From the NCBI GenBank assembly GCA_039566865.1, contig CM076952.1, forward strand, positions 12,916,501 through 12,980,500: a stretch of 64,000 nt of DNA, in the 5' to 3' direction. The position numbers and the translations under genes are program-made. The stretch is from Aurelia coerulea (lineage: Eukaryota > Cnidaria > Scyphozoa > Semaeostomeae > Ulmaridae). The notes beneath the pieces were generated by a model. It was not told where the DNA came from. It saw nothing but the letters and a program-made list of their open reading frames with translations, and did no database searches. Every line of letters begins with the position of its first letter. Position 1 is the stretch's first letter. Positions 18,907 to 45,357 of this stretch are shown piece by piece.

Positions 18907-18915
18907 CTCCAAGGA

Positions 18916-18967
18916 TACCCTGGGTACCAGACTCTCTAACATGTTAGAGAGTCTGGTACCCAGGGTA
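18916..18967. mobile_element. 52-bp palindromic mobile element, copy 1
   Basis: A perfect hairpin from tip to tip: TACCCTGGGTACCAG at the left, its complement at the right, centre AACATGTT. It is bounded by an exact 9-bp duplication CTCCAAGGA (18907-18915 and 18968-18976), so it moved as a unit. Confidence 0.9.
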
Positions 18968-19105
18968 CTCCAAGGACAAAGAGGGGTCAAACTATCTACA
19001 TTGCTTGACCGCCCCTGGCATGTACTATGGCCTAGTCTAGATTCGAGGAGAGAATTCATTGCAAAATTTTGTTCACTGTTGTCTGTTGATATGCAGTTTT
19101 TCGAG

Positions 19106-19170
19106 TACCCCGGGTACCAGAGCCAACAAAAATAACAGTATTAAAAAAGAAGGCTCTAGAACCCAGGGTA
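19106..19170. mobile_element. 65-bp palindromic element, older relative
   Basis: Tips TACCCCGGGTACCAGAGCC and GGCTCTAGAACCCAGGGTA around a 27-base loop. The flanks TTTTTCGAG and TTATTCCAG match at 7 of 9 positions, as expected for a decayed 9-bp duplication. Confidence 0.65.
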
Positions 19171-19664: not shown

Positions 19665-22450
19665 CAGGGTTGCCAGATTTGGATGATGGGAAATATGCCA
19701 AATTTTGCAAAAAACAAGCCAAATTGGTCAGAAATAAGCCAAACTCAATTTCCTCCGCAGAGGTAGCTAGTGGCTGCGCAGGAGGCTATTGAAAACAATG
19801 GATTTACATATTATTGTAAGTATAAGTTTGGTTTCAAAGTAGAAATCATGGTAAAAGTCCTCAACAGTCTTTTTCGTACCTAAATCAAATTAATATTTTC
19901 TGTTGCATTGCATGGGAAATTGGGAACCATCAGTATGGCAATATGGACAATCTTTTAACCTGGCATGTAGGCATCAAGTTTTCAAAAATATGGTGTGAAT
20001 AAATCATTATTACTGTGTTGGTTCGATTGAATGGTTTGAAAGGAACCTAAATTCTTCCATTTCTTATTCATGCTAGCATATAAGATTCCTTTCAAGCCAT
20101 CTAATCAAAACAAAGATTTGATAACAATTTACACTATAACTTTTAAAATGTTGATGCCTATTATGTGTATTTCCGTTAATGTAAAGGTGATCTAAAGCCA
20201 CCATAGACCTTTAATTAGGCATGAAATAGTTTTTATGATGGAGTAAAAAAAAAACACTAAGTGCATATTTGAAAAATAAATCTCCCAAGTCATTTCATAA
20301 CATATTAAATCTCGGAAAAACACTTGAGTCACTGTCTACACAAAATCTACAAGAGCAATTTCATCTCCTTCGTCATTGTTGGACACAGCACTTGAAGTTG
20401 GATACATGATATCTGAGCTAAACAAGGAAAGCATTCTTTGGCTTGGTACAAAGTATTTGCAACATTTGTCACCAAAGTGCAAGTGAGTGCGAATGCGAAC
20501 GAGGGACTCCAGCATTGTGACACCCATTCGGTTTCGCTGCTTTGTCTTTACATTCGTAACATAGGAGAGGATCCTCTCAACAACAGCATTGCTTGTAGGG
20601 GTGGTAAGGCAGGCAAGAGCATATGCTGCTAGGTCTGCAAAGGGGAATTCTTGCACTGAATTCTGATAATGGAGAACACCAGACCAGAATGGTACAGCTT
20701 CTTGGGGTATTCCATCCTTGAAGACTGGTTCCTCTCTCCAGTTGACAAGGAAAATGTTTCGGTACTGGTTGTCAATTTCGGAAAGCTTATCAGCCATCAA
20801 GTGCTGCATTGGAAGCTTTGCAAGAGGCACTCTACCAATTTTGACTAAGCACTCTTGATGGATGCAAATAGCTTAAAGCCTGAAATACATCCCTTGATGG
20901 TGGAAGACGTTTGCTCACTTGGCTTGTTGCTTCTAGAAGCATTTTGTGGCACCTTCCCTTGGCCTCCATAACCTTTAGCAACACGGAGTTGTCTCCTTTG
21001 TTTCTGTCTACCAGTGCATTAGCTTCAAATAGAAACTTAGCACCGAAATCTACCTCTGCAAGGGGCAGCTGGGCTCCATTTACATCAACCACACGGCTTT
21101 TGAGGCTGTCGAAGAAAAGACTGAGCTCCTTGATCATGTCATGAGGATCAATATCTGTTGCTTGAAAAAATGCATTCATCCTCTCAAACTCTGCTACAAT
21201 GGGAGACAAGAAATGAAAGTATAGGAGATTTAAGGGATCTCGTAGCATATCTGCAATCAAGCGGGCTTTATAACGCACTTGAGCATCCCCTTCAAGCTCT
21301 GCAACGGAGAAGTAGGCCCTCAACTCATGCCAGTTGACCAAGATGTTGAAAATGACCTTCCCTCTAACCAACCAACGTGTTTGCGAGAACTTCTGGAAGG
21401 GACGGGGAAGGCTCGCACTCTCACTGTTCTCATTGATGATGTCAAATAACTTCTTGCATGCTTCCCGACGCAAGATGCTCTTTGAAAACCATTTTGGAAT
21501 TTCACTCAAAAGGAAGCCAAGATGAGATGGCATCTGCTCGAATGCATGCTTGATGCAAAGGGCCAAGGAATGGCATATGCATTTCATTATGGTGCAGTTG
21601 GGCGATTCATTTCTGACCCTGGACCAAACTGAGTCATGCTCACCAACCATAGCTGATGCTCCGTCACTGCCAAACCCAACACAGTCACTCATCTTCAACC
21701 CGGCAGCCTCCACAGAGGCTTTCATGGCATCAAACAAATCCTTTCCAGTTGCACTGACCACTGGTATCAAACCAACAAAGGCAGTGACAATCTTCTTCTC
21801 CACTTTGCTGTAAAACCTCACTGCTACGCAAAGGTACTTCAAGCAGGCAACATCTGTGGACTCATCAATCATGACACAAAACTTTCCACCGGCCATATCT
21901 TTGCACAAATCTTCGTGTAAAGCTAGTGAAACAACGTTCTTTATCAGACTGGCACACTTGGTGCGATGCAGCTTCATTTTCTCTAATTTTGAACCTGTTC
22001 CACCACGTACTATTATTTCTCCAAGATGGTCTATGGACATGATTGCACTATGGCAGGCTATGGCAACAGAAAATTGAATTTCCAATTTCTTGGTTTCTTC
22101 GTCATCTTTTGGTTTTTGAGCAAAAAGTTTGTGGCTGCTTGAAACTGAACTTGTGATCTTGACGTGTTTTGAAGTCTCTTCATGCTGCTTGAGATTTGAG
22201 GCTCTAGGCTGGATGTTTATTCGACAAAAAGAACAGTAAGCCATGTCAGATCCATCCACTGCCTTTTTAACCCAAGGATATTTTCTCTGCCATTCAGGCT
22301 TGAATCTTCTAGATTCATCGTAATGACCTTTCCACTTTGTACCTTTAGATGGCTTGCTGAGACTCATTTTTACCTTGCTTGAAAATGTTACCGTAACACA
22401 AATAAGAATTTCACTGCGGTATGTTCGGATTTAGTTTATGAGATTTTTGA
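19665..22450 (-). mobile_element. Autonomous-type hAT transposon, 5' end not located
   Basis: The 3' tip CAGGGTTGCCAGATTTGG begins at 19665 and is followed by subterminal GCCAAAT repeats, both typical of hAT elements. The transposase lies on the minus strand. I could not find the matching inverted tip beyond 22450, so that end is lost or diverged. Confidence 0.75.
20336..22367 (-). pseudogene. hAT transposase, single frameshift
   Basis: Cut-and-paste DNA transposase of the RNase H-fold hAT superfamily, read 22367 to 20336 and about 677 residues in all. A BED/TTF-like zinc finger (CSFCRIN...LKQHEETSKH, about 45-68) would bind DNA. DESTDVACLKYLCVAVRFY holds the first catalytic Asp (about 169-172). 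GFGSDGASAMVG (about 231-242) holds the second. KCICHSLALC is the conserved C-H block. After the insertion domain, TTPTSNAVVERILSYVTN provides the catalytic Glu and the dimerisation region. The frame breaks once, in an A-run near 20848 (LSQ / KIGRVPLAKLP). Otherwise it is open from MSLSKPSKG to the TAG at 20336, so the copy is young or this is a homopolymer error. The start has A at -3. Confidence 0.9.
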
Positions 22451-29924: not shown

Positions 29925-29973
29925 TACCCTGGGTACCAGCCTCTCTAACGTAAATAGAGAGGCTGGTACCCAG
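29925..29973. mobile_element. Palindromic mini-element, right tip lost
   Basis: TACCCTGGGTACCAGCCTCT and its inverted partner GGCTGGTACCCAG, truncated before the terminal GGTA. Same family as 18916 and 43673. No duplication is preserved. It marks the end of the LINE fragment. Confidence 0.75.
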
Positions 29974-43193: not shown

Positions 43194-45357
43194 GGGTATG
43201 GAGCGTGATTAAGGCCAAAACTAAATCATCAAATAAAACCCACATTTGGAAATTAAATCCGACAAAATGAAATAATAATCTCTTACAAATACTCATTTCG
43301 AAAAAGCAAAATGCATTTCAAAATCGCGAGACAATATTAAATGCAGAAAACAACACGAAATGAAATCGAAATCAAAATAAAAGCATAATCTTAAATGAAT
43401 TTACAAGACGAAATCAAAATGCAAACACAAAATCCAATCCACAAGATGCGCTAAGTGAAATCAGTCATGCCCTAAGTGAAATCGCTCATGCGCTAAGTGA
43501 AATCGCTCATGCGCTAAGTGAAAAACAAATCGAGCGCGCTTTGTAGCGCGCTTATAAGAATAGCAGTAGGCCCAGAGTCGCGCTAAGCGTTCGGCTCGGT
43601 TCCCAACGACAGCAGGCGTGCTTTTGTCACAAGCACGTGTCAAGAGGAAAGTTTTGAAGTTTGCACCTTTGATACCCTGGGTACCAGCCTCTCTTAACGT
43701 TAGAGAGGCTGGTGCCCAGGGTACACCTTTGACTTCCCTCAAGAAATGTTTAGACTCTGTCTTTAAGGGAAGAAACTTTCGCAGGAAGAAACTTTCAGGA
43801 GTTATGGGAAGTTTATAGGGAATAAACTTGCGGGGATAAGGTTCTTATCAAATTTTGAATGTCTCAAATTCAGTTCGGTTCAGTATTAGAAACGCTACAA
43901 AACAAGTACCCAAAAAATGTCAAAACAGTTGCTCTTTGAACAATTTTCAACTTAGGAAGTGTAGTTTCTGAAGTTTTGAAAAGTTGGGGCAACTATTCCT
44001 TGTAAGATTTTTCTTATAAAAAATTGGGTGCACTCTACTTCCTCTTTATTCCTCTCAAAGCTTTTTGAAAAAAATCAGGTCCGGGCTGGCAGATAGTTTC
44101 TTGAAATTTGGGGCTAGTTTGATACCAAAAGTTTCTTATGTGTTAATGCAAAAAGACCAATTCTTTTATGTCCCGAAGGTGCCTATATTTAGAACATGTA
44201 TCGACAAAATGTGTAGTAAAAAAATAAGTTGATTTGAAGTTCATGACCATATCCTTCTTTCCTTCTTTCTGAAGTTGAAGTCAAATTTGTCAATGGAAAC
44301 TTTTTGGAGTTTGCTGAAATGAATGCAATCTTTACTTTAGTTTTCAAGTTGTGAGCCAGGAAAAATAAAAACTGCAAATTACAAAAATTTCTCAACTTTT
44401 CAAATTCAGGTTGAGCTTTTTCCGAAATTTAACAAAATTGAATCTACCATCATCATAGTAATAATCATAATCATGATCATGAACATCATTATCAAAGCAA
44501 TGCCCGATGCGATGCTCTCCTTGAATTAGCCACCAACCTAGCCTGCGCGCAGACTCTAACACCAACCGAGCTGAAGACTCAGCAGTGCGACTGTGGGCCT
44601 ACTGCTATTCTTATAAGCGCGCTCGATTTGTTTTTCACTTAGCGCATGAGCGATTTCACTTAGCGCATGAGCGATTTCACTTAGGGCATGACTGATTTCG
44701 CTCTGCAAATGGCCATTTGAACATGGAAACGAGACTTTTCTTTCAAATATGTACTGTGCGCACGAGGGGCTCCCAACATAGCATCCACCAAGATTTGAAG
44801 CAGACAGTTTTCGCCTTACATTTATGATTTAACTTTTCATTTCATTTTAGATTTTGATTTCGTCTTGCACATTTTAATTTTTTATTTATTTCGTATTGGG
44901 ATTTCTGTTTACATTTGGATTTCATCTTGCTTTAGATTTGGTGTTGGGTGTCACATTCCCATTTCGAATTAGGATTTCCGTTTGTCATTTTGTTTAAGCT
45001 TTCGTCTCGGCTTTCAATCTATGATTTGATTTCATCTTGTCTTTTTTATTTATGATTCAAATAAGGATTAGGATTTCGTTTCATATTTCGATTTAGTCTT
45101 GCATATTTCCTTGTGGATTGGATTTTGTGTTTGCATTTTGATTTCGTCTTGTAAATTATTATGCTTTTTATTTTTATTTTTATTTGGATTTCATTTTGTG
45201 TTTTTTTCTGCATTTAATATTGTCTCGCGATTTCGAAATGCATTTTTTTTCGAAATGAGTATTTGTAGGAGATTATTATTTCATTTTGTCGGATTTAATT
45301 TCCAAATGTGGGTTTTATTTGACGATTTAGTTTTGGCCTTAATCACGCTCCATACCC
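43194..45357. mobile_element. 2.16-kb foldback, GGGTATGGAGCGTGATTAAG tips
   Basis: GGGTATGGAGCGTGATTAAG returns inverted at 45338-45357. The arms remain paired through GACAAAATGAAATAATAATC, the triplicated GCGCTAAGTGAAATCGCTCA and GCGCGCTTATAAGAATAGCA, i.e. to ~43580 on the left and ~44600 on the right. The right arm is longer because of variable TTTCGTCTTG/ATTTTGATTTCG repeats. The tips resemble the family at 13424. A 51-bp palindromic element sits in the loop. No transposase. Confidence 0.85.
43673..43723. mobile_element. 51-bp palindromic mobile element, copy 2
   Basis: TACCCTGGGTACCAGCCTCT, centre TTAACGTTA, then the inverted half (one mismatch, GGTGCCC for GGTACCC). The exact 9-bp duplication CACCTTTGA lies at 43664-43672 and 43724-43732. 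Confidence 0.92.

Follow-up and report, generated by a model that had tools for sequence, protein, structure and literature searches.

The window analysed comprises 64,000 nucleotides of the Aurelia coerulea genome (GCA_039566865.1, contig CM076952.1, forward-strand positions 12,916,501 to 12,980,500), and window coordinates are counted from its first letter. At 18916..18967 lies a 52-bp perfect palindrome, composed of a 15-bp tip, an 11-bp arm, a second 11-bp arm and the inverted 15-bp tip. All 52 of its 52 positions are self-complementary, so that the first-pass annotation was right in describing the whole element as one hairpin. The palindrome is flanked by the 9-bp target duplication CTCCAAGGA, with the left copy at 18907..18915 (+) and the right copy at 18968..18976 (+); both were assigned from the sequence, and the left one also from the nine-base overlap of the halves in 32 filled host copies. 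A 51-bp element, identified as a young insertion by empty host copies, was located at 43673..43723, and its 29-base centre has a single exact occurrence in 574 Mb (an exact-match search, which altered siblings would escape). It is bordered by a different exact duplication, CACCTTTGA, at 43664..43672 and 43724..43732 (both +, from the sequence and the empty host copies), as had been annotated before. Comparison of tips and flanks placed an older 65-bp relative at 19106..19170, with the tip followed by AGCC and with flanks agreeing at 7/9 positions, the same count as previously given. The 49-bp copy at 29925..29973, formerly called truncated, indeed misses the last four, outermost bases of one tip, and carries no target duplication; it stands directly after a reading frame that appears, by eye, reverse-transcriptase-like. 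On the minus strand at 20336-22367 a hAT-type transposase reading frame was noted, broken into two neighbouring ORFs; among named proteins, the closest relative of its product is from the octocoral Paramuricea clavata (60% identity), followed by crustacean and Hydra proteins. Matches to the tip with up to 3 mismatches numbered 10 in the window, versus 0.46 expected and a maximum of 3 in 100 shuffles, and random pairs of 9-mers from within the window matched at 9/9 in 141 of 300000 draws.

A genome-wide search was made for the host repeat of the 52-bp copy, with 40 of 61 candidates scored. This gave at least 32 filled copies, the halves of which overlap by exactly the nine duplicated bases, at a mean flank identity of 98.5%. 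Insert lengths, taken from the spacing, were 52 bp in 31 of them and 63 bp in one, and the insert sequence itself was read in two copies (window and L098). Five relatives at 88–92% identity are without the insert, and one more host-repeat copy, at 83% identity, aligns through with 48 extra bases. Because the host copies share both the nine-base overlap and the insert, the 52-bp copy represents one insertion event, which a larger repeat has carried along in 32 or more of its copies. For the same reason it was rejected as an independent case of a 52-bp unit on the move. The hAT element of the window may belong to this repeat; clear ends of the element were looked for near the 52-bp copy and none were found. 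For the host repeat of the 51-bp copy, 20 full-length copies at 98–100% identity (242 bases each against the 241-base query) have no insert, two partial copies (96 and 99%) also span the insertion join without it, and among the 40 of 237 candidates scored only the window copy was seen split by the insert. The 51-bp insertion is young, because host copies at 98–100% identity lack it. Distant relatives of this repeat, full or partial, stand at 71–85% identity, and several have 30–50 extra bases somewhere along the alignment.

The exact 15-bp tip, TACCCTGGGTACCAG, occurs 3910 times (1940 + 1970) in the 574-Mb genome, and the reversed-letter control of the tip has 0 exact occurrences in the whole 574 Mb. 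Inverted tip pairs were sought genome-wide, as the first-pass annotation had proposed, and hundreds of short copies were obtained: exact-tip pairs numbered 341 at 30–60 bp, 319 at 61–91 bp and 73 at 92–122 bp, counts that are inflated by copies of host repeats. The samples that were read come from the window and from contigs C1 and C2, with exact tips as the criterion of choice, and thus include no copies with two altered tips. From the 30–60 bp class, 40 of the 50 places listed among the 341 were fetched (6 others had already been read and 4 were one repeated locus); in the 61–91 bp class the sequence was viewed for 12 of 50 places listed. Two arm types dominate, with [AC]CTCTCTAACAT... in 18 of 39 pairs and AGCC... 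in 14 of 39. As in MITEs, the exact-tip pairs of 30–122 bp are short, non-coding and present in high copy number, with terminal inverted repeats; the size homogeneity of MITEs, as stated in PMC2872659, is not seen, small copies ranging from 33 to 221 bp with 53 interiors among 56 entries. As in Foldback elements, the arms fold into one long hairpin, both in the 52-bp palindrome (52/52) and in a long unit, L060, with 1738-bp arms. Some copies are clustered. Six identical 48-bp copies are spread over 1.2 Mb at C1:42591302-43752836, and the two that were read have common flanks; they are likely a duplicated segment. Five 105-bp copies, each with one tip followed by AT, lie within 1.4 Mb at C10:5770756-7149571, and at C1:20748717-20748966 two identical 47-bp copies, separated by 203 bp, resemble a tandem duplication.

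Target duplications were scored in two samples. In the first, 45 unique pairs in which one or both tips are exact (loci L001–L070 and the window), flanks agreed at 9/9 in 27, at 8/9 in 7, at 7/9 in 5 and at 4/9 or fewer in 6. In the second, 40 copies of 33–60 bp with two exact tips, five of which (L086, L088, L098, L111, L113) repeat an insertion already in the set, the counts were 27 at 9/9, 6 at 8/9, 4 at 7/9 and 3 with fewer. Agreement of at least 8/9 was reached by 34 of 45 and 33 of 40, respectively, versus a control with flanks swapped between copies, in which 7/9 was seen in 0.065% of 20000 draws and 8/9 or above never. The 50 distinct perfect duplications, taken on both strands, are A+T-rich at the centre (80% at position 5) and 38% A+T at the ends, with no fixed sequence. 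When 41 joined-flank queries were compared with the fetched DNA, relatives of L028, L036, L049 and L056 aligned gap-free through the join with a single 9-mer, exact in L036, L049 and L056 and with one base changed in L028; the alignments of L035, L037 and L066 were unclear, and the remaining queries gave none. The mobile family with 9-bp duplications put forward in the first-pass annotation is therefore supported, both by the flanks of the two samples and by six insertions for which empty paralogous sites exist. Two observations had been named there as speaking against it, a majority of copies lacking matching 9-mers and orthologous sites in related strains that are never empty. Neither refutes it here: duplications are perfect in 27 of 45 and 27 of 40 copies, and empty sites were found, although these are paralogous, within the same genome.

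Long elements with the same ends were located by an inner-end pattern, which has 152 matches in the genome (77 + 75). The 100 ends listed gave 34 convergent pairs under 12 kb and 32 unpaired ends; the 34 are the long elements whose arms fit this one pattern. Twelve of the pairs measure 3548–3620 bp, 21 measure 4167–10809 bp, 16 of which do not exceed 5654 bp, and one measures 2040 bp, which puts the bulk of the long elements at 3.5–5.7 kb. The terminal inverted repeats of the long members agree in sequence with the arms that the commonest small copies have. Three long elements were read at both ends and have exact tips throughout; two have 9/9 duplications, GGGTTTTTA and CCCTCCTTG, and the third agrees at 2/9 in the 9-bp register and has, by eye, the 8-bp duplication CCGCAGAC. 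The L060 unit (L060:973-9089; C1:7586572-7594688) measures 8117 bp; its outer ends carry exact tips and are bordered by the perfect 9-bp duplication AAGATGTTG. Within it, a 3.6-kb element adjoins a 4.5-kb fold-back, the 1738-bp arms of which are 99% identical. The composite has the appearance of two elements that had moved as one. Pfam searches with 10 ORFs of L060 gave three matches, all far below the cut-off, and no accepted domain; six-frame searches of the 3.6-kb part, of most of the 4.5-kb part (the last 1.7 kb of the fold-back being scanned only via its mirror arm) and of the L039 end also gave no accepted domain. The longest L039 ORF, used as a protein query, had one match, an unnamed protein identical across the whole query. 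By coordinates, a 108-bp copy at C3:27228380-27228487, itself unread, covers one of the inner-end matches of the long elements. In sum, this is a real and abundant fold-back DNA-transposon family with 15-bp tips, mostly 9-bp duplications, empty sites and long members. A literature search, with Repbase and Dfam outside its scope, found no description of a palindrome family with the tip TACCCTGGGTACCAG.

A 9-bp target duplication is typical of Mutator-like elements, and duplications of about this length are present in small and long members alike (8 bp in one long element). Mutator-like transposase domains are plentiful in the genome: PF10551 has at least 105 matches (150 of 224 candidates scored), PF20700 at least 114 (114 of 556 candidates scored), many in open frames of 600–670 codons, and PF21056 at least 98. 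PF20700 matches are visibly many, by eye, on contigs C5, C9, C17, C21 and C22. Of 142 transposase places among the PF10551, PF20700 and PF21056 matches listed on contigs C1–C12, none lies in the 34 long pairs and none within 15 kb of the listed inner ends of long elements. The 8-kb stretches round eight PF10551 loci contain no tip pair enclosing the gene; small copies occur near two of the eight, one in L073 and a heavily altered one in L075. At 138 places the tip is followed by A and then by A or T, and a by-eye comparison of the 100 listed with the transposase places gave nothing. The PF20700 match at C1:806150 was considered as the family transposase and rejected, the tip 3 kb off (L008) being one-armed, with similarity that ends after ~39 bases. 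Mutator-like mobilisation, which the first-pass annotation had suggested, is likely by the duplication length only; it also fits the many Mutator-like transposases of the genome, although none was found between family tips. A search for a longer, transposase-bearing element with the same tips had been proposed there as a check; long members with these tips were found but no transposase was found in them. The target duplication of piggyBac is the 4-bp TTAA, and the TTAA duplication of the piggyBac-linked CMITEs is not what is seen here, the duplications being 9 bp.

Our preferred reading, in which we have about even confidence, is a non-autonomous, fold-back, cut-and-paste DNA transposon family whose small copies are what remains when repair after excision stops short. 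A Mutator-like transposase supplied from another locus of the genome would recognise the 15-bp tip, cut at the border between tip and duplication, and move the element. The gap left behind would be refilled from the sister or homologue, often incompletely; copying would proceed inward from both ends for some distance, and the two copied stretches would be joined at a few matching bases. What would remain between the two intact 9-bp duplications is either a short palindrome or just one arm. Both the 52-bp and the 51-bp window copies would be such remnants, the former later carried to at least 32 places by its larger host repeat. What bears on gap repair are end states, excision itself being unseen.

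Small copies are read as remnants because their centres are private and longer elements share their ends. Among the 56 small entries, which still include L085/L086 and L112/L113 (each pair being one insertion), 53 different interiors were counted; three interiors occur twice, one of those as a local duplicate, and two recur at independent sites. L085/L086, L087/L088, L110/L111 and L112/L113 have the same or nearly the same centre and also a common duplication or common flanks. Copies with a common centre thus mostly share flanks, and are therefore duplicates of one insertion. The joints were examined in 52 distinct CTC-type sequences, of which 25 resolve exactly into one left and one right segment of known arms and 27 are not exact two-piece joins. 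Overlaps of at least 2 bases were present in 10 of the 25, versus 13% expected (P = 8e-4); a cruder joint count explained 30 of 59. In 7 of 23 single-tip copies the flanking 9-mer recurs within 70 bases with at least 8/9 agreement, versus 0.4% of 504 comparisons in the control. Five of them (L009, L018, L023, L034, L038) are clear one-armed copies ending at the duplication, with 22 element bases followed directly by the exact 9-mer in L023; L029/L045, a single insertion within repetitive sequence, are ambiguous as one-armed copies. The border between tip and duplication, at which the one-armed breaks lie, is where a transposase would cut. Insert length was stable in ordinary copying (31 of 32), and length change therefore seems tied to movement.

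A possible though doubtful alternative is that the small palindromes themselves transpose, as ultra-short MITEs of 33–80 bp moved in trans via the 15-bp tips only, the centres differing as each lineage changed and cut-and-paste leaving no sibling. The shortest copies (33, 38, 39 and 44 bp) all have perfect 9/9 duplications, as this would predict; the young 51-bp insertion requires one event only, and two interiors do occur at independent sites. The size distribution also speaks against random remnants of multi-kb elements, since exact-tip pairs fall from 319 (61–91 bp) to 73 (92–122 bp), a drop that fits a mobile 80-bp palindrome as source. The drop above ~90 bp therefore suggests that the source was a palindrome of ~80 bp, such as L010, rather than the multi-kb elements directly; if many small copies derive from it, the remnant argument applies to that source. 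Set against ultra-short MITEs, 53 interiors among 56 entries and the single exact genomic occurrence of the young 51-bp copy's centre are not what a family multiplying at such a size would show, the 32 places with the 52-bp insert go back to one and the same insertion, and the four further common-centre groups also share a duplication or flanks. That the 15-base tips alone make DNA mobile, and that palindromes of 33–52 bp transpose and are among the smallest transposable units known, we hold to be unlikely. The 51–52 bp form had been annotated as a transposing unit near the minimum size; this is not established, and the private centres, the lack of an exact sibling and the longer elements lean against it. 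The unique 51-bp centre is compatible with movement at 51 bp, because cut-and-paste need leave no sibling.

Rather improbable, in our judgement, is that larger palindromes or MITEs shrank in place, by replication slippage or by nuclease cleavage of the hairpin, with no transposase involved. In-place deletion does occur, because L028 and L030, one insertion with the same duplication, differ in length (221 and 202 bp). Shrinkage would also account for the short overlaps at joints and for the one host-borne insert of 32 that measures 63 bp instead of 52. A further case may be L083 and L090 (45 and 49 bp), which share the duplication TGTTTTGGT and have different centres; beyond the duplication their outer flanks agree only partly, in 12 of 14 left-flank bases and in few right-flank bases, and they could be one insertion changed in place, or chance. 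However, 31 of 32 host-borne inserts kept their 52 bp, the 51-bp copy, young as it is, has a private centre, and one-armed copies ending at the duplication are unexpected from hairpin-centred deletions. That the palindromes are not transposon-derived at all, being structural repeats or assembly artefacts, is almost certainly wrong and is refuted by the controlled target duplications, the empty sites and the many dispersed copies.

If the remnant reading is true, the genome holds hundreds of datable excision scars, in each of which the duplication, the left arm, the right arm and the joint can be read, and which together would form a natural catalogue of how far gap repair progressed before it failed. 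If instead the 33–52 bp forms move, they would mark how small a transposable unit can be, with the tip alone being enough. Either way, annotators can place short perfect palindromes with 9-bp flanking repeats.

Among known systems, maize MuDR reportedly undergoes internal deletion by interrupted gap repair, studied in one autonomous element. The route from long to short proposed for the Aurelia family is similar, with ends and duplications intact and the pieces joined at short matches; it differs in being inferred here from end states, where the MuDR work concerned one autonomous element. Foldback (FB/NOF) elements of Drosophila have long inverted arms, and their arm structure changes fast. 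By structure only, the Aurelia family resembles these elements and Galileo, the latter as described in PMC3573991, in long inverted arms, as in the 4.5-kb unit with its 1738-bp arms, and in fast arm change; Galileo differs in its 7-bp duplications and is classed there with the P element (PMC3573991). CMITE of Acropora corals is likewise a set of short, non-coding inverted-repeat elements in a cnidarian genome, and is described as piggyBac-linked with a conserved interior (PMC2872659), whereas the present family has 9-bp duplications and interiors that vary by copy. Tm1, a Mutator/Foldback family of root-knot nematodes, has duplications of 8–10 bp in 45 of 53 cases, mostly 9 bp (PMC3169594). 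As that paper describes it, Tm1 shares with the Aurelia family the inverted repeats, the mostly 9-bp duplications, the MITE-like forms beside longer members and a target with no clear consensus (PMC3169594). Some Tm1 members encode a putative transposase, whereas none was found here between tips, and the Tm1 inverted repeats are reported to contain tandem units of 13–15 bp (PMC3169594), whereas the Aurelia family has a different tip and members down to 33 bp.
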